A stretch of DNA of 38,165 nucleotides from a virus: positions 1 through 38,165 of the IMG/VR virus record IMGVR_UViG_3300031463_000542. One strand, 5' to 3'. Shown piece by piece: positions 8,180-20,704 of the stretch (the first letter of the stretch is position 1; every line of letters starts with the position of its first letter). The position numbers were made by a program, and so were the translations under genes. The notes under the pieces were generated by a model. It saw only the letters and a list, made by a program, of their open reading frames with translations. It did no database searches and had not been told where the DNA came from.

Positions 8180-8488
8180 TCATTTCAAGTAGGAAGCTCC
8201 AAGGGAAGGAGTGGTTCCTACCGGTGGAGCGTCTATTCGGTGGGACTCCACAACAATGGCTCCCTGCCTCGGATCAAATACAGCAATCCAAGGATTTAGG
8301 AGTATATGGGAGAGGTAGGTATATAACCAAATGGGACCCCTCCCATATATCACGACCCCATGGCTTACGTCGAGCTCATGTGGAAGCTCGACAGAAAGAA
8401 GTTCTCTTGGGTCGAGAACCCCGTTGACTGAGATGCTGAGGATCTGGAAATACTCAGCCGGAATCACGCTTAAAGACAAATTATTCAT
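8180..8488 (-). CDS. csx3: Csx3-family protein (CRISPR ring nuclease Crn3-like)
   Basis: The 102-residue protein matches the Csx3 family in length and key motifs: GVVIYGRGPIWLY (residues 44-56), H61, AVFDPRQGAIVV (70-80) with D72 and R74, then ESH. Csx3/Crn3 proteins are ring nucleases that cleave cyclic tetra-adenylate, the second messenger made by type III CRISPR complexes; a histidine, aspartate and arginine in these places are reported as important in the Archaeoglobus protein. Carried by a phage, it would most simply blunt type III CRISPR signalling. The start follows AAAGGAG and overlaps the upstream stop as ATGA, so it is the second gene of a two-gene operon. No Cas genes or CRISPR repeats are nearby, which favours a counter-defence role over being part of a CRISPR locus. 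Confidence 0.85.
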   Translation of the reverse strand: MNNLSLSVIPAEYFQILSISVNGVLDPRELLSVELPHELDVSHGVVIYGRGPIWLYTYLSHILLNPWIAVFDPRQGAIVVESHRIDAPPVGTTPSLGASYLK

Positions 8489-8763
8489 ATTTCTTTCTCC
8501 TTTCTGTTATCGTTCCACCCATCCTTTTCCAAGGCCTTGGAGGCCTTGGAAAAGACCTCCTCTAGAGTTTGTTGTGGGGTAATATCTACCCCATGAACTC
8601 TGAACCATACCTTCACCCAGGGGAAATACTCCTGGGCAACGGCCTCGTAAGCGAGGCCGATTGTTAAAAGTATGGTATTCGTCCCAGCGCTCTGGGGGAG
8701 AACGACCTTCCTGCATGTATATGCAGAGAGCTTACTCCCGAACACTATTCTTAATGTGATCAT
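8485..8763 (-). CDS. Hypothetical protein encoded upstream of csx3
   Basis: A 92-residue soluble protein (MITLRIVFGSKLSAY start; helical charged C terminus EEVFSKASKALEKDGW). It begins at 8763 behind a strong SD (AGGAGG plus 4 bases); a longer frame to 8802 is not supported because it would place that SD inside the gene. It ends in an ATGA overlap with csx3, so the two proteins are co-produced. I recognise no family. The strand-turn-helix look with two strand-rich segments would suit a small alpha/beta fold. Given its place, it is a candidate counter-defence partner or regulator of csx3; this is inference. Confidence 0.75.
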   Translation of the reverse strand: MITLRIVFGSKLSAYTCRKVVLPQSAGTNTILLTIGLAYEAVAQEYFPWVKVWFRVHGVDITPQQTLEEVFSKASKALEKDGWNDNRKEKEI

Positions 8764-8792
8764 ATTGCCTCCTTTTCTTCTGTTTGTCTCAT

Positions 8793-8821
8793 TATATAGC
8801 ACAAACTGTACATACTGTTAA
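8793..8821 (-). promoter_or_regulatory. Candidate promoter of the csx3 operon
   Basis: On the minus strand TTAACA (8821-8816), a 17-base spacer and TATATA (8798-8793) lie about 30 bases before the ATG at 8763. Unlike the leaderless genes this leaves a short leader containing the SD AGGAGG. An overlapping TATAAT at 8796-8791 would need a 19-base spacer. Confidence 0.4.
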
Positions 8822-9068: not shown

Positions 9069-9368
9069 ATGGTTCTAGTCTATGTAGTAGTCGGAAACGA
9101 GTTAATCCGTTTAGTGCGCCTAGATACGTTTCTTTCTAATCAACCCAAAGCTAGCGCTGAAGCCTTCCATGACACCATCAAGGAGGGGAAGGTCCCCCTC
9201 TATGTCATCGGAAGAGCGATTTGGGCTCCTATACGGGACCTTCGAAAAATAGCCGAATCGCTGAAAAAGAGAGAAAGGCTTGGGGCTGGGGGCGCATACC
9301 AAATCGTGCGAGCCATTCCTCCCGAATTGGTCCATGCAAGAGAAAAAGAAGAGGGAGGCACAGAGTAG
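9069..9368 (+). CDS. Unit 1 gene A: hypothetical protein, paralogue of the gene at 9797
   Basis: The 99-residue protein aligns with the 104-residue product at 9797-10111: both have an early LVRL/LVRV, then a segment of type LYVIGRAIWAPIRDLRKI / LYIIDKQIWIALTDLQRI, then QIVRAIPPELV / QIIQAIPPEKV near the C terminus. Identity is low, so the copies have diverged far. The middle segment resembles the wing and recognition region of small excisionase-like or regulator proteins, but that is weak. The gene ends with TAG at the left edge of a 65-base block repeated exactly in unit 2. No SD is obvious before the ATG. Confidence 0.65.
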   Translation: MVLVYVVVGNELIRLVRLDTFLSNQPKASAEAFHDTIKEGKVPLYVIGRAIWAPIRDLRKIAESLKKRERLGAGGAYQIVRAIPPELVHAREKEEGGTE

Positions 9369-9425
9369 GTGGTGTATTCCTAAGCCTGGACCTGTCCCCT
9401 GGAGGCTTTTCACTGTGGGCGAGGC
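9361..9425 (+). repeat. 65-bp exact repeat, copy 1 (A/B junction of unit 1)
   Basis: Bases 9361-9425 are identical to 10104-10168. The block contains, in order: the TAG stop of gene A (9366-9368), AAGCCT (9382-9387), AGGCTT (9403-9408) forming a 6-bp stem, GGAGG (9401-9405) partly inside that stem, and GTG (9415-9417) followed by GGCGAGGC. Outside the block the upstream genes are diverged paralogues and the downstream genes are unrelated. Confidence 0.9.
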
Positions 9426-9696
9426 CCCAAAGAAAATTTCTTGGAAACACCTTGGCTTCGATTTAGGTGAGCTCGCGCACAAGGCAAGAAAGCTACAACA
9501 TGAGAAAGGGCTCTCCCGCTGGGGGGCGTGCATAAAGATAGCCAAACAAGCTTTAGAGCAAAAAAAGCAAGAGGATCCAGACGTAATAAAGAAGGCCACA
9601 AAAAAGCTAGCTTCCTCCACAGGCAAGGATCCCCGTACCATTACGCGTGCTGAGGTTGAAAATAAACTAGCCGACGCCATCCGCCACAAGATCTAA
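9415..9696 (+). CDS. Unit 1 gene B: hypothetical basic protein
   Basis: From a GTG at 9415, placed 9 bases after GGAGG inside the repeated block, the frame encodes 93 residues: a basic helical N-terminal half (WKHLGFDLGELAHKARKLQH) and a C-terminal segment (KLASSTGKDPRTITRAEVEN). The frame is open further upstream through the shared block (reading PKPGPVPWRLFTVGEA) to ATGs at 9337 and 9280, so a longer form overlapping gene A is possible; the GTG is preferred because it also exists in unit 2, where no upstream start codon is available. I do not recognise the family. The first residues after the GTG (GEA) are shared with unit 2 and the rest is not. Confidence 0.55.
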   Translation: MGEAPKKISWKHLGFDLGELAHKARKLQHEKGLSRWGACIKIAKQALEQKKQEDPDVIKKATKKLASSTGKDPRTITRAEVENKLADAIRHKI

Positions 9697-9735
9697 AGAT
9701 AGACGCTTCTTCATATCCCCATAGACACAAAAAAC

Positions 9736-9758
9736 TTTGGAGTAAACACAACTCCAAA
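9736..9758 (-). terminator. Hairpin with T-run on the minus strand
   Basis: TTTGGAGT, 7-base loop, ACTCCAAA: a perfect 8-bp stem. Read on the minus strand the stem is followed by G and six T, the form of an intrinsic terminator. It would stop leftward antisense transcription before it reaches unit 1. On the + strand it has no T-run. Confidence 0.4.
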
Positions 9759-9765
9759 CTCCCTG

Positions 9766-9795
9766 CTACCCCTACGCCTGTGTAGTTTAGGGTAG
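9766..9795 (+). promoter_or_regulatory. Nested inverted repeat before gene A of unit 2
   Basis: CTACCC and GGGTAG (6 bp) enclose CTAC and GTAG (4 bp) with loop GCCTGT and a 4-base TTTA bulge. The right arm ends one base before the ATG at 9797, so folding in RNA would occlude ribosome access. It may therefore control translation of gene A2, or be a DNA operator. Confidence 0.35.
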
Positions 9796-9796
9796 T

Positions 9797-10111
9797 ATGA
9801 GTGAAAATTTTTTTCTTATTCAAAAAAAGGATTTAGATCGATTGGTTCGGGTAGAGGATCATCCACAATGGCTCCAGAGGGCTATTTACCAAGCTTTTTG
9901 GGAAGAGAAGCTACATCTTTACATCATTGACAAACAGATCTGGATTGCCCTGACCGACCTTCAGAGGATCAAAAAACTCCATGATGAGATAAGGCTAGAG
10001 ATTTGCAAGGAAGAGAAACAAAAAGTCGGGGAAACCAACGCTTCTCAAATTATCCAAGCTATTCCACCAGAAAAGGTGGCAGCTAGCACTAAGGAAGACC
10101 GGCCAGAGTAG
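9797..10111 (+). CDS. Unit 2 gene A: hypothetical protein, paralogue of the gene at 9069
   Basis: The 104-residue product is a diverged paralogue of the product of 9069-9368 (shared LVRV, LYIIDKQIWIALTDLQRI, IIQAIPPEK), with an added charged linker before the IPPEK motif. The stop TAG (10109-10111) lies at the start of the second 65-base repeat copy, in exactly the same position as in unit 1. The ATG is preceded by a nested inverted repeat instead of a clear SD. Its role is unknown. Constant pairing with a downstream gene through the repeat suggests A and B act together or that A translation controls B. Confidence 0.65.
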   Translation: MSENFFLIQKKDLDRLVRVEDHPQWLQRAIYQAFWEEKLHLYIIDKQIWIALTDLQRIKKLHDEIRLEICKEEKQKVGETNASQIIQAIPPEKVAASTKEDRPE

Positions 10112-10168
10112 GTGGTGTATTCCTAAGCCTGGACCTGTCCCCTGGAGGCTTTTCACTGTGGGCGAGGC
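10104..10168 (+). repeat. 65-bp exact repeat, copy 2 (A/B junction of unit 2)
   Basis: Identical to 9361-9425 at every base, 743 bases further on. It again holds the TAG stop of gene A, the AAGCCT (10125-10130)/AGGCTT (10146-10151) stem, GGAGG (10144-10148) and GTG (10158-10160). Confidence 0.9.
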
Positions 10169-10334
10169 TGCTAAAGCCCTCTCAGTGCATCTAGCCAATG
10201 TACGTAGGTGGATCGTAAGCGGTCAAATTCAATTCCGTAGGCTAGGGAAGCTTGTCCGCATTCCTGAGGAGGAGCTTGCCAGGATTGCCCAGGAAGGATT
10301 GGGCTTCTCTAGGAAGAAAGTTAGGCATGTCTAA
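10158..10334 (+). CDS. Unit 2 gene B: small HTH (excisionase/MerR-type) DNA-binding protein
   Basis: The 58-residue frame from GTG at 10158 reads GEAAKALSVHLANVRRWI, then GQIQFRRLGKLVRIPEEELA: the helix-turn-helix plus wing pattern of HTH_17/excisionase proteins (E-A-A, V-x-x-x-x-V-R-R-W-I, R-x-G-x-x-x-R-I-P). In relatives two or three residues such as FTV precede this; here they are encoded just before the GTG, so a longer product is possible, but no ATG, GTG or TTG exists upstream in frame before the TAG at 9996-9998. GGAGG lies 9 bases before the GTG. The stop is inside the first 20-base direct repeat, a likely autoregulatory or recombination site. Confidence 0.65.
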   Translation: MGEAAKALSVHLANVRRWIVSGQIQFRRLGKLVRIPEEELARIAQEGLGFSRKKVRHV

Positions 10335-13176: not shown

Positions 13177-14098
13177 GAGCAAGGCGGCAAAAGAATCCGG
13201 TCTCTTAGCTCCACCTTCTCCATCGATGCAGATAGGCAAAAGGCTGCATCATGTGCTTTCAGAAGAGCTGCCGCCTGGGACAGACGAAGAGAAGGAACTT
13301 CTTGAATGGTCAAGGAGCGTAGTGTCAGAACTTACCAAAGGCCTGACTGTGTTATATGACTACAAGGAACTGGTATTAAGTCGGGTGGGTGAGTATGTAG
13401 GCAGGGCTGACAGGGTGATTGTTACACCTCAGCTTTTGATAGTGGTGGATTGGAAGACAGGTTACAATGATGTAGACATGCCTGGTGAGAACCTGCAGCT
13501 CAAAGCTTATGCACTAGCTGTTATGTCCTGGTGGAAGAAAGACTGCATGGTAGTGGTAGGCTATACAATGGACAGGCGTATTGAGAAAGACATATTTCCG
13601 TATACAGAGGTATGGAAACTAGAGAATGAGATTTTTGGGATTTATGAGTCAGTCAAAGAAGAGTATACGTATGGTCCGCATTGTCGGTGGTGCGCTGGAG
13701 CAGTGACGTGTCCGAAGATAGGTGAATTATGGAAGGAAATGCTTTCAGGAATTCCTCGTATAAAAGAGGATACAGGCAAACTTTTTCTGATAGTGAAAGT
13801 GATAGGCGAGGTGATATCGGGACTAGAGTCAAGGCTCAAGGAAGAAATTATGGAGAAAAAACGAAGTGGAGAAAAGTTGCCAAAAGAGGTTATGGTTTAT
13901 ATGTCTAAGAAATGGCAACTTCCACCGCTCAAGGAGCTTTGGCCTCTATTAAAGAAAATGGGAGTTAAGCCAGAAGATGTATTAGAGAACAGCTATGCAA
14001 AAGAACAATGGATCAAAAAAATCCTCGATGAAGAAAGCTTCAAACAAATCGCAAACCCAGTTCACTTCCCTGTCATCAAACTCTCAGGCACCTCTTGA
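13079..14098 (+). CDS. RecB/Cas4-like PD-(D/E)XK nuclease
   Basis: The product shows the RecB-type nuclease core: MQIGKRLHHVLSE (helix with the conserved H), VGRADRVIV, then LIVVDWKTGYND (motif II/III, D and K catalytic), and ENLQLKAYALA (Q-x-x-x-Y). One early cysteine (LAQKCRASW) and three late ones (CRWCAGAVTC) follow the 1+3 pattern of iron-sulphur nucleases such as Cas4 and AddB. It would resect DNA for RecT. I choose the ATG at 13079, nine bases after GAGG; in-frame ATG 13070 and TTG 13058 are less well placed. The C-terminal ~100 residues are helical and unassigned. It overlaps terL by 104 bases. Confidence 0.8.
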   Translation: MDKPYPKIQELKRNLPSASQLWLAQKCRASWIESKAAKESGLLAPPSPSMQIGKRLHHVLSEELPPGTDEEKELLEWSRSVVSELTKGLTVLYDYKELVLSRVGEYVGRADRVIVTPQLLIVVDWKTGYNDVDMPGENLQLKAYALAVMSWWKKDCMVVVGYTMDRRIEKDIFPYTEVWKLENEIFGIYESVKEEYTYGPHCRWCAGAVTCPKIGELWKEMLSGIPRIKEDTGKLFLIVKVIGEVISGLESRLKEEIMEKKRSGEKLPKEVMVYMSKKWQLPPLKELWPLLKKMGVKPEDVLENSYAKEQWIKKILDEESFKQIANPVHFPVIKLSGTS

Positions 14099-16004
14099 TT
14101 TAGAACTTTTTGCATATTTCGCAAGTTACCTACAATTCGTCTCCAAAGAGAAGGGAATCACCAATCTTAGGCTTTATGACATACAAAAGTTTATATTACA
14201 GGAGCTTTGCAAATATTTATCCCAGGGTATACGTAAATTCATATTCTTGAAATCCAGGCAGATGGGTTGCACAACGCTGTTTTTGGCACTGGATCTTTAT
14301 TGGCTTCTTACACATAAAGGTGTGTCTTTAGCTATAGTGGCTGACAAGGTTGATACGATGCTAGCTATACGCCAGGCCTTTAGGTTTATGGTGAAGAGCC
14401 TACCCAAAGATGTGTTCGATGTAGAAGTACTAGGTGATGATAAGGATGCAATGATATTGCCTGAGGGCAGGGTGATATACTGGCGTCATGCTGGGTCTAG
14501 GCGTACGGAGAGTGATAGAAGTGGTGGTAGGCTCGGTCGTGGTACAGGCATAACCTGTGCGCATATGACTGAAGTAGGGTATTGGAAGCATGATAGTGAG
14601 TATGATGCTATACAGGCATCCTTTTCTGAAATGCATCCAGCAAGGTTTGTAGTAGAAGAAAGCACAGCTGGCGGGGCAGGACTTTTCAAAGAACTGTGGG
14701 AACAAGCAGAGAGTGGGAACATGGTAAGCAAGCGTGCCATATTCTTGCCATGGTGGAGGGATAGTCGATATGATTTGCCAAGAGACTCAGAAGCGTTCAA
14801 GCATTATGTGAAGGCTGATCCGATAGATGGAGAATTGGATTGGGTGTATGAAATCAAGGATAAGTATGGAGTAGAGCTTAAGGACAGTCAGATTGCTTGG
14901 TATAGGTACATCGTAAATGAAAAGTACAGGGGAATGATAAGTAGGGCCTATGAGGAATTCCCTCCACTTCCAGAAATGGCATTCCAGTATCATCAGAACT
15001 CGTTTTTCAGTTTTTCATTGATCAAATCCCATGCTGATGAATTGAGGGAGAACCCTCCAGCAGAACTCAAGGTAGGTTTTCAGTTCGGAACATGGCTACA
15101 TGACACAGTGGCAAACGAGAATCCAGAAGGATCACTTACGATATGGGAAAAGCCAGAAACAGGCATGAAGTATGCAGCGGGTTGTGATCCGAAGTATGGT
15201 AGCCTGGAGAGTGATTGTGCAGCGTGCATATCGGTTTGGAAATGTTATAGTGATAAGATAGTGCAGGTAGCTGAATTCAATGATCCGAATGTATCATGCA
15301 GTCAACTTGCATGGGTGATTGCGTATTTGAGTGGGCTTTATCATCCACTTTATGTAAACATAGAATTAGGCGGAGGAGGCTATGCTGTGTTCCAAGAAAT
15401 GCAAAGAATACAACAGGAGTACACAAAAGAAGGCTCTAAGATTGTACATACAGGAGGAGGGCTAACGCATACGAATTTTATAGACTCAGTGATGCATTAT
15501 ATATGGAGAAAGCCAGACGCTTTAGGTGGAGGGGGAGCGTATCATTGGAAAACTAGTCATGACAGCAAGCTAAAGTTATTACATCAGTTCCGTGATGCGT
15601 TTATGAGAGACATGCTGCATGTGAGATCACTCATGTTATATGAGCAGATGTCATTCTTTCTTGAGGATGAGAATGATGTTTGGTCAGAGGAGACAAGCGA
15701 TCGCGTAATAGCTGCAGGGCTTGCTGTACAGGTGTATTTCGATGTTCTGTACAACATCCTCATTGAAGAAAAAATATTTTGGGATGGGAAGATAAGCAAT
15801 AGTTCTCTCTTGCAATCAGAAGAAACCCAAGTACATTCCCTGAAACCACCTACGAAGGAGGAATTGATTAGGCATTGTATATACTCTTTTATAGGCAAGC
15901 AATTAGAGAAACCGAAAGATCCTTTAGAAATATGGAGGCAGAAGAAAAGAAATGACTTTGTACAAATGCAGGGGGTGCGGCGCAGTTTACAAAAGCGTCG
16001 TTAA
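13995..16004 (+). CDS. terL: Terminase large subunit
   Basis: The 669-residue packaging motor and nuclease has an ATPase domain with a Walker A-like FLKSRQMGCTT (residues 84-94), in which the usual GKT is replaced by GCT as in many terminases, and a Walker B/acidic region CAHMTEVGYW. The RNase H-like nuclease domain begins around YAAGCDPKYGSLESDCAACI. It packages DNA through the portal encoded downstream. The N-terminal ~30 residues are basic and polar, and the first ~104 bases overlap the nuclease gene; an ATG at 14028 is an alternative start. I see no convincing small terminase; the Zn-ribbon protein that follows is in an odd place for one. Confidence 0.88.
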   Translation: MQKNNGSKKSSMKKASNKSQTQFTSLSSNSQAPLDLELFAYFASYLQFVSKEKGITNLRLYDIQKFILQELCKYLSQGIRKFIFLKSRQMGCTTLFLALDLYWLLTHKGVSLAIVADKVDTMLAIRQAFRFMVKSLPKDVFDVEVLGDDKDAMILPEGRVIYWRHAGSRRTESDRSGGRLGRGTGITCAHMTEVGYWKHDSEYDAIQASFSEMHPARFVVEESTAGGAGLFKELWEQAESGNMVSKRAIFLPWWRDSRYDLPRDSEAFKHYVKADPIDGELDWVYEIKDKYGVELKDSQIAWYRYIVNEKYRGMISRAYEEFPPLPEMAFQYHQNSFFSFSLIKSHADELRENPPAELKVGFQFGTWLHDTVANENPEGSLTIWEKPETGMKYAAGCDPKYGSLESDCAACISVWKCYSDKIVQVAEFNDPNVSCSQLAWVIAYLSGLYHPLYVNIELGGGGYAVFQEMQRIQQEYTKEGSKIVHTGGGLTHTNFIDSVMHYIWRKPDALGGGGAYHWKTSHDSKLKLLHQFRDAFMRDMLHVRSLMLYEQMSFFLEDENDVWSEETSDRVIAAGLAVQVYFDVLYNILIEEKIFWDGKISNSSLLQSEETQVHSLKPPTKEELIRHCIYSFIGKQLEKPKDPLEIWRQKKRNDFVQMQGVRRSLQKRR

Positions 16005-16473
16005 AGTATGCCCATCATGTGGCAGCAAATCATGTATAGCTGTATACAACGTAGAGGAGGATGATATACCTAACAAGAGAAGTCCTAGATACGACTTCCA
16101 AGTATCCAAGAGTGAAGTAAGGAAAAAGCTCAAACGTATCAACAAAATAGCTGAAGTGCAGCTCAAAAAGATGGGGATTAGTGATTATCCATACAATCCT
16201 GATGGTACATCTAAGATGAGCAAGATTGTGAAAGAAAAATCATTAAAAATCATCAAGGATAGCGCCAAAGGAACTCCACTTGAGAACTCGGCTCAGCTGG
16301 ATGATTCAATGAATTTCTGGGGATTACAGTTTGGGGGCCAGAGAATAGACGGAAGAAAGTTAAAACAAATGAACTTCCAGCCTCAAATAAGTCTAAAAGA
16401 TGCAGCTCCCAATCTACGTGATGTAGAAGAAGGAATATCTAGGAATCTCATAAATGTTATAAATGCAAATTGA
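15952..16473 (+). CDS. Zinc-ribbon protein between terminase and portal
   Basis: The 173-residue protein starts with a four-cysteine zinc ribbon, C6-x2-C9 and C20-x2-C23 (YKCRGCGAVY, VCPSCGS). A basic helical segment (SKSEVRKKLKRINKIAEVQLKK) and a polar remainder follow. It overlaps terL by 53 bases and the portal gene by 11. The ribbon and basic helix suggest nucleic-acid or motor contact during packaging, or a head completion role. No closer family is recognised. Confidence 0.75.
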   Translation: MTLYKCRGCGAVYKSVVKVCPSCGSKSCIAVYNVEEDDIPNKRSPRYDFQVSKSEVRKKLKRINKIAEVQLKKMGISDYPYNPDGTSKMSKIVKEKSLKIIKDSAKGTPLENSAQLDDSMNFWGLQFGGQRIDGRKLKQMNFQPQISLKDAAPNLRDVEEGISRNLINVINAN

Positions 16474-18157
16474 GAAGAAACTAGAGCATAGACTCACTCA
16501 AGTTCAGAGAATATATGAACTTTGCACTTCTTCTCAACAGCGCAGAAGAAGCAACCTAAGGAAATGGCGAGAAGCCTATGATTATGGGAAGACAGAAAGA
16601 GAGGTAGGTTCCTCGAGTGCTTTGCGCAAGATACAGCCATTCATCAACTTTTATGCCTCTCTTCTTTATCTTCCTATAACAACAAAACTCAAATTAGATT
16701 TCAATGGCGATCAAGACATCGATCTGCCCAATTTTGTGCCGAAATCTTCTGCTGCAACAAGCTACATCAACAAATGTTTCCAAACAACAAATACGGATAT
16801 AGTCATAAGCCAATCTGTTATAGAGAGCCTAATAGGCGGATCGGCTTTTATAAAATTCACCTTAAGAGAGGATGATATATCAGGTTATTCACTCCAAGCC
16901 AATCTAGTTCTTCCTGAGCAAATGGGGGTATGGAGAGAAGACAGCAACTCGTTAGATGATCAGGAAGTTGTGACATTCATGACCAAGCTCACATTCCCAG
17001 AATTAAGGAGGTGGCTGTATTCTAACCATCCTAAGGAACGGGCTAAGAAGATATTAGAAGAAATAGTGGCTAGAGGTTTTGAGGATGGTCAGACCATGGG
17101 AGAACAGCAAGGGCTTCTTGTGGTCACAGGCGCTCCTGGAGCACCCCAGGTTACTACGCATCCTGAAGCTATAGCCGATATGGTCACATACAATCCAGAA
17201 GTAGCTGCCTCGTTGTATGATTATAAGGAGATATGGGTATGGGATGATGAGTTAGAGGATTATAGGGATATAGTCACAATAGGCGATTCAACTATAGCCT
17301 TTGATTCAGGCGATCCAGAGATGGGAGGTATTCCTGGTAGACCTAATCCATTCATTGAAGGCGAACATCCGTTTTGCCAGATTGTAGTGGATGTGAAGAG
17401 TGGATGGTTTTGGGGCAAGAGTTTTGTCGAAGACATAAGCCTAATACAGGACTGGATCAACGATAGACTTCTTCAAATAGATCTTTTGTTCCAATTAGCA
17501 TTGGATCCACCAGTTGCGTTCGTAGGACCGAATCTTGCGTTGTCGGAAGAGAAAGTAAACCAATTCTTTTCCCCAGGTGGTAGGATAAAGTTAGGAACTC
17601 CTAACTCAACTGTACAAGTATTCTTTCCCCAAATCCCTGAATCCTCAATGCCGCTTATGGAATATATGGAAAGACAAATGCATGAGCAGGCCAACCTTGG
17701 TCCTATTTTGTTAGGGAAAGAAACACAAGGTACTAAAGGTGCAGAGCATGCAGCAGTATCGGCGGTGATGGGATCCAGTGATGTATTGAGAAAGAGTATC
17801 CTTTTAGAGAAGCAAATAGAAACCATTGTTAATAAGATGTATCATGCACTTAGGACGTATAATACTACGAAGCTAGTTGATGAGAATGGACTTGCATTCA
17901 TACTAGCTCAACTTCCTAAAGGGGTGAGTGTAAGAGTAGACTCTCATTCATCAAGTCCAGTAATGCGAGGCAGAAGAGAAGCACTGATCAAAGAACTATT
18001 CCAGGCAGGGATTATAGACGGCAAGACAGTTTTAGAAGAATTTGAAAGCGATCTTTCATTAGGCGAGCTTGCGATGCAAAGATACGAGAAGATGGAGAAG
18101 CTGCGCCAGATAGCTCAGGCCGCACACGAAGTCGAACAACAAGCCAAGAAAAAATAA
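16463..18157 (+). CDS. Portal (head-tail connector) protein
   Basis: The 564-residue protein has the position and features of podovirus-type portals: an N-terminal helical region (QQRRRSNLRKWREAYDYGK), then a core with SGWFWGKSFVEDISLIQDWIND, then ANLGPILLGKETQGTKGAEHAAVS before the long stem helix, and a C-terminal coiled region (KMEKLRQIAQAAHEVEQQ). It forms the ring through which terminase pumps DNA. It starts inside the Zn-ribbon gene. After it comes the one gap with a promoter-like sequence in the head gene cluster. Confidence 0.85.
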   Translation: MQIEKKLEHRLTQVQRIYELCTSSQQRRRSNLRKWREAYDYGKTEREVGSSSALRKIQPFINFYASLLYLPITTKLKLDFNGDQDIDLPNFVPKSSAATSYINKCFQTTNTDIVISQSVIESLIGGSAFIKFTLREDDISGYSLQANLVLPEQMGVWREDSNSLDDQEVVTFMTKLTFPELRRWLYSNHPKERAKKILEEIVARGFEDGQTMGEQQGLLVVTGAPGAPQVTTHPEAIADMVTYNPEVAASLYDYKEIWVWDDELEDYRDIVTIGDSTIAFDSGDPEMGGIPGRPNPFIEGEHPFCQIVVDVKSGWFWGKSFVEDISLIQDWINDRLLQIDLLFQLALDPPVAFVGPNLALSEEKVNQFFSPGGRIKLGTPNSTVQVFFPQIPESSMPLMEYMERQMHEQANLGPILLGKETQGTKGAEHAAVSAVMGSSDVLRKSILLEKQIETIVNKMYHALRTYNTTKLVDENGLAFILAQLPKGVSVRVDSHSSSPVMRGRREALIKELFQAGIIDGKTVLEEFESDLSLGELAMQRYEKMEKLRQIAQAAHEVEQQAKKK

Positions 18158-19675: not shown

Positions 19676-20704
19676 ATGCCGCAGCTAGGAGTAGGTTTAG
19701 TTCCCCAATCGCCAGTAGGTGTATCACTAACATATATTACATCACGTGGTATATTGCCAAACGTATATCTACAAGTTTTCACTTCGACTCCAACCTTGTT
19801 CTTGCTTCTTTCAAATAGAAGCGAGCATACAGGTGGTGTTAGTTCTATCTCTGCGCCTGTGGTGATGGACAATCTGACACCTGCGCAGTGGATAAGCTAC
19901 AATGCTAATTTCGCTCCGCCTCCATTCGATCTGCAAGGGATGATGCTTGCAGAATGGAACACAACGGTGTGCGGTGTTCCTGTTCCTATAAGTTTGCCAG
20001 AATTGCTCTTACAAGAAGGCAATGCGATATTGCCAATTCTAGATGCTCGGTGCAATTCAGTTGCTCTTGCGTTCCAAGATGCTTTATCCAATGCTATTTT
20101 CGGAAATTCTTACAATGGTGGAAATACGCTTGCCTTGGAAGGATTCCCTGACGCTATAGACAATGGGAATCAAATTGCAACCTATGGAGGTATTCTTAGG
20201 GGAGGCACAAACGCATTGTACCCTCAATTTCAATCTACTGTATATCAATTAACTGGCTCGCCTCTTCCAACAAGACAGGATGTTATACAACGCATCACTG
20301 GTGTAGCCAGGAAAATGGGTGAAAAACCCACGGCTTGCGTTATGGGGTTCGGCACATGGGCAGCGTTAGCGGAAAGCTTCGTAGGAATAGAAAATATGTA
20401 TTTAGTTCCTGGGCAAGAGAATAGATCTCTGACTTACCATTCTGGATTTGATACGTTAATGGTAGCCGGAGTTCCTATATATCCGGACGTGTATTGCCCA
20501 GAAGGAATAATGTATATCCTCAACACGAATTATCTGAAAATTTTTGTGCATGAGGATTTGTATTTTTCCTGGTCAGACTGGTACAGCTTGATACCTTCCT
20601 TCTCATTGTCTTTTATTGGAATCGAGCTTTTTTCAGGACAATTAGTTAACCTTAGGCCGAATTCTTGCGGTGTTGTTCAAGGATATGGATATATAAGCTT
20701 TTAA
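19676..20704 (+). CDS. Major capsid protein
   Basis: The 342-residue protein follows the scaffold-like gene and precedes small head and adaptor genes, the major capsid position. It is strand-rich with small residues, without long charged helices. Segments include AEWNTTVCGVPVPISLPELL and DALSNAIFGNSYNGG. Length fits an HK97-fold capsid protein of a 38-kb phage. There is no SD of note (GAGATAAGATAG before ATG). No specific capsid family is recognised; the call is mainly positional. Confidence 0.75.
   Translation: MPQLGVGLVPQSPVGVSLTYITSRGILPNVYLQVFTSTPTLFLLLSNRSEHTGGVSSISAPVVMDNLTPAQWISYNANFAPPPFDLQGMMLAEWNTTVCGVPVPISLPELLLQEGNAILPILDARCNSVALAFQDALSNAIFGNSYNGGNTLALEGFPDAIDNGNQIATYGGILRGGTNALYPQFQSTVYQLTGSPLPTRQDVIQRITGVARKMGEKPTACVMGFGTWAALAESFVGIENMYLVPGQENRSLTYHSGFDTLMVAGVPIYPDVYCPEGIMYILNTNYLKIFVHEDLYFSWSDWYSLIPSFSLSFIGIELFSGQLVNLRPNSCGVVQGYGYISF

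Follow-up and report, generated by a model that had tools for sequence, protein, structure and literature searches.

The DNA analysed here (further on, the window) is an entire virus record of 38 kb and carries on its minus strand, amid long plus-strand genes, a two-gene cassette whose second gene, csx3, encodes a Csx3/Crn3-family protein. Bacteria and archaea employ proteins of this type to break down cA4, an alarm molecule of CRISPR defence. Over positions 8180-8488 the plus strand is interrupted by stop codons, and the frame of csx3 belongs to the minus strand. The features considered below are:

8180..8488, minus strand: csx3, Csx3/Crn3-family protein of 102 aa
8291..8311, minus strand: csx3 codons 60-66, TCC CAT ATA CTC CTA AAT CCT, with HILLNP in place of the family's HxxHP(T)
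8485..8763, minus strand: upstream partner gene of 92 aa, whose stop codon and the start codon of csx3 overlap (ATGA)
8791..8821, minus strand: possible promoter of the cassette, weak and read from sequence, TTAACA (8821-8816), 19 nt, TATAAT (8796-8791)
13995..16004, plus strand: terminase large subunit (PHROG phrog_2, E 2.2e-14)
16463..18157, plus strand: SU10-like portal protein (Pfam E 0.00025, below gathering score; phrog_1216, E 4.6e-5)
19676..20704, plus strand: major capsid protein (phrog_9953, E 7.8e-15)

The open reading frame of the partner gene is listed from GTG at 8802, and the ATG at 8763 was preferred since AAGGAGG lies ahead of it. No relatives or families of its product were found by Pfam, PHROG, and homologue searches, and its fold is predicted as beta-beta-alpha-beta-alpha with low confidence (pLDDT 61). 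Ribosome-binding sites of the cassette are good. The pair TTAACA/TATAAT was not listed by the consensus promoter scan, its 19-nt spacing falling outside the range of the scan; between these candidate -35 and -10 boxes (8791-8821, minus strand) lies an imperfect inverted repeat, AACAGTATGTACAGTT, perhaps an operator. The G+C content of the cassette is 0.483 versus 0.416 overall, above 98% of equal-sized windows, and might be consistent with its acquisition from elsewhere.

Phage record and search for its host

The terminase at 13995-16004 identifies the carrier of csx3 as a phage, and further genes of the window are RecT-like, exonuclease, helicase, primase-like, lysozyme, and tail ones. Neither Cas10 nor a CRISPR-like repeat was found in the 38 kb, and among the window proteins scanned with PADLOC no Cas match came up besides Csx3, except helicase-domain cross-matches at 758-2260. 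The surroundings described in an earlier note on this DNA—clear phage genes (terminase, portal, capsid, lysozyme, and tail in a virus record) and no Cas genes nearby—are thus confirmed. The terminase shares 32% identity with that of a Manatee Spring phage and 29% with that of Hydrogenobaculum phage 1. Close relatives of the window phage were found neither with the exact terminase query nor by searches with csx3 itself and with its partner gene. Two small plus-strand reading frames, 9069-9368 and 9797-10111, look like mutual paralogues; no protein family was found for the latter.

Comparison of 20 kb of the window with 136 Aquificota genomes gave weak short matches only, and none of the 15 match loci inspected lies within a CRISPR-like array; the terminase had no match in Aquificota genomes, and 394 archaeal genomes from the phylum of Methanosalsum gave none at the DNA or protein level. 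Searches of these Aquificota and archaeal genomes by spacer and by terminase thus identified no host with a type III system. Codon usage of the window resembles that of some archaea and of Hydrogenobaculum phage 1, and decides nothing on the host.

Csx3 fold and the loss of H60

By sequence and by fold, the 102-aa product is a member of Csx3 far beyond chance, this assignment being to the family and not to the active Crn3 ring nucleases. It matches Pfam PF09620 (E 5e-21, 74.8 bits, cut-off 21), the NCBIfam equivalog TIGR02579 (72.6 bits, 2.3e-20, cut-off 55.4), Csx3 in PADLOC, and AfCsx3 chains in the PDB (E 1e-15), and is approximately 30-41% identical to known Csx3 proteins. The structure predicted as a monomer from a 59-row alignment has pLDDT of 93.8; its best solved structural matches are AfCsx3 chains (TM 0.82-0.86), headed by 6yud, the complex of AfCsx3 with cA4 (TM 0.86). 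The motifs GRGPIWLY and FDPR are present, so both they and the homology to Csx3 proposed earlier were borne out, while the description as full-length is nearly right: no strand is predicted in place of the C-terminal one of AfCsx3 (EGDVIDV), and no frameshift masking it was seen by eye.

In AfCsx3, residues H60, D69, R71, and H80 matter for catalysis, H60 being absolutely conserved and essential, while H57 and H60 are the likely metal ligands, and ring nuclease activity of the H60A and D69A mutants was not detectable (PMC7371418). The window protein retains H57, D69, R71, and H80 as H61, D72, R74, and H83, but the position of H60 is taken by Leu64 or by a gap: HxxH of the family is replaced by H-I-L-L with a one-residue deletion, and the loop is shorter. 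The loss does not depend on alignment, because H61 and H83 have no further histidine between them, and the earlier statement that the His/Asp/Arg set is intact proved wrong. A single base-calling error behind the lost histidine was rejected, as converting CTA to a His codon takes two base changes and a codon is missing as well. The residues holding cA4 on the D69 face of AfCsx3 (G45, R46, I49, and R71) are kept together with the pinning H80, as is the GRxPxW segment that holds cA4, with D69 and R71; S44 of AfCsx3 corresponds to Tyr48. Counted over 106 other Csx3 domains, HxxH is found in 39 of 41 stand-alone cellular matches (one of the two exceptions is a fragment), in all 13 viral or prophage copies (12 IMG/VR records and one prophage-like plasmid record), and in 38 of 52 longer, mostly AAA-fused, cyanobacterial proteins.

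Judged from these residues, ring nuclease activity of the window protein is doubtful. It is rather unlikely that cA4 is still cut by a rearranged metal site, with H57, H80, or the neighboring Asn65 in place of H60. Such a site would accord with the retention of every other catalytic residue, with the catalytic appearance of the remaining viral copies, and with the unsettled metal coordination in AfCsx3, where H57 and H80 are possible ligands; however, H60A alone abolishes detectable cleavage of both cA4 and RNA by AfCsx3 (PMC7371418), and here, in addition, the loop has one residue fewer. Clearly unlikely, too, is a gene in decay, gained as an active Csx3 and now losing its function, which would explain the missing H60, the changed S44, the unpredicted C-terminal strand, and the longest branch in the family tree (2.13 changes per column), but hardly the open frame, good ribosome-binding sites, confident fold, and retention of all seven positions that do not vary across the 59-row alignment. 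Survival of the motif residues other than H60 over about 2.1 changes per column argues for selection over most of this branch.

Csx3 in other phage records

IMG/VR scans yielded 14 other records with Csx3, their lengths ranging from 7 to 272 kb. Eight of them have hallmark or typical phage genes: a terminase match above 40 bits in six, an endolysin with a KilA-N gene in one more, and primase, UvsX-like recombinase, and ribonucleotide reductase in another. Records of the Planctomycetota-like group may be proviruses or wrongly sorted pieces of host DNA. Cas10 was found in none of the 13 records where it was sought. Twelve of the 14 entered the HxxH count; of the other two, L221, read separately, keeps all five residues, and L132, a near relative of L127, has a frameshifted Csx3 domain. 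In a tree of 89 Csx3 domains, built on few columns and with many open forks, well-supported branches force five or more changes of the viral label, which indicates that viral Csx3 was acquired several separate times.

In L127, a phage record of 107 kb, the gene at 9401-10282 encodes a fusion in which an intact Csx3 domain follows a segment that matches NUDIX weakly (E 0.006, below cut-off) and whose RAVEEELGI resembles part of a Nudix box. In the phage-like L221 (9989-11007), intact Csx3 is followed by a separate P-loop gene resembling (QRGCPDGEGE) the AAA part of cyanobacterial Csx3-AAA fusions (QRAHWDGEGN). A Pyramidobacter record filed as a plasmid (L004, NZ_CP133039.1) is prophage-like, with genes for a LexA-type repressor, integrase, and DNA polymerase, and carries intact crn3. 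Cyanobacterial tandems (L002, L023, L054, L058, L060, L061, L063, and L070) combine a mostly intact stand-alone Csx3 with a following AAA-fused copy having a degenerate active site.

No Csx3 was found by tblastn with three queries in 50,697 phage records, no PHROG match for the window protein, and no significant match to its model among BFVD viral structures. AcrIII-1, Csx20, and Csx16 appear in the list of a published survey covering 28,114 phage genomes, but Crn3 does not (PMC12409355), and no published description of phage Csx3 was found in a literature search covering few subscription papers or preprints. Csx3 of phages therefore makes up a class of viral genes missing from published surveys, and the window copy is its odd member.

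Proposed action against type III CRISPR

Counter-defence is the likely role of the window protein, being the most economical one because no Cas genes stand alongside and other phages acquired Csx3 independently; several separate acquisitions fit an antidefence benefit. The earlier note had likewise considered counter-defence against type III CRISPR probable, and the same two lines of evidence support it; its further claim that cA4 is destroyed is not supported as stated, the essential H60 being missing. We tentatively favor, at somewhat short of an even chance, the reading that this phage protein blunts type III CRISPR by sequestering cA4 with little or no cleavage. The phage would express csx3 during infection of a host presumed to carry a cA4-signalling type III system, the protein would bind cA4 between stacked dimers, and the bound messenger would be withheld from defence largely or wholly uncut. 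Sequestration is preferred over cleavage since H60 is lost while most of the face that holds cA4 is kept, AfCsx3 H60A still binds cA4, having been crystallized with the ligand between dimers (PMC7371418), and orphan PfCsx15 acts as a sponge, sequestering cA4 rather than being mainly a nuclease and forming higher oligomers upon binding (PMC13148439). Mixing AfCsx3 H60A with cA4 turns the solution milky, which its authors read as fibres (PMC7371418). A fuller account, possible but to be taken with distinct reserve, is that phages repeatedly took Csx3 from type III systems as an anti-CRISPR and that in this lineage, with the catalytic histidine lost, it turned into a cA4 sponge that forms filaments, nature's own equivalent of the H60A mutant made in the laboratory.

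Several points stand against a sponge. The side chain of S44, which contacts cA4, is replaced by Tyr, and the C-terminal strand looks degenerate. H60 is present in all 13 aligned viral or prophage relatives, which suggests that other phages rely on cleavage; since the window copy is single, function is not separable from recent decay. Type III systems make much messenger, which, according to the authors of the Csx15 study, could render sponging fruitless (PMC13148439). Quite improbable is a different ligand or role, for instance binding of RNA or of another cyclic nucleotide; Tyr in place of S44, the partner gene without known relatives, and weak RNA binding by AfCsx3 (PMC7371418) speak for it, but the key cA4 contacts G45, R46, I49, R71, and H80 are retained. 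The chance is slight that the window protein and a host Csx3 join in a mixed tetramer, the former supplying the D69 face and the latter that of H60, and thereby accelerate cA4 removal: inactive H60A and D69A mutants of AfCsx3 regain activity when mixed, their half-sites complementing across dimers (PMC7371418), but the host Csx3 would have to stack with a protein as divergent as this one.

Family, fold, and most active-site residues are common to the window protein and cellular Crn3/Csx3 such as AfCsx3 and M. mazei Csx3, from which it differs in its location on a phage without Cas10, the lack of H60, and the shorter loop. Other phage copies (e.g., L006, L125, L126, and L128) likewise reside in phage records without Cas10 but, unlike the window copy, keep H60 along with H57, D69, R71, and H80. 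The proposed mode—sequestration of an immune nucleotide—is shared with the phage sponges Acb2, Tad1, and Acb4, known against CBASS or Thoeris, although the proteins are unrelated. Orphan PfCsx15 offers the likeness of cA4 sequestration within a ring nuclease family, but its family is different and Csx15 was not seen in phage genomes (PMC13148439). AcrIII-1 (DUF1874) is also a viral protein aimed at cA4, but its fold is unrelated to that of Csx3 and it is described as an active enzyme (PMC7371418, PMC12409355). AcrIII-2, a viral SAVED protein, represents a host-type cA4 sensor domain taken by a virus, with a composite site between stacked units (PMC12751052); it differs from the window protein in its SAVED fold and in being catalytically active.

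With intact Csx3 of several origins in uncultured phages, one of them with a 272 kb record, the viral arsenal gains a further family of ring nucleases. That sequestering cA4 alone can blunt type III immunity is doubted in the Csx15 study (PMC13148439), and a natural copy without H60 would offer a test of whether it does.
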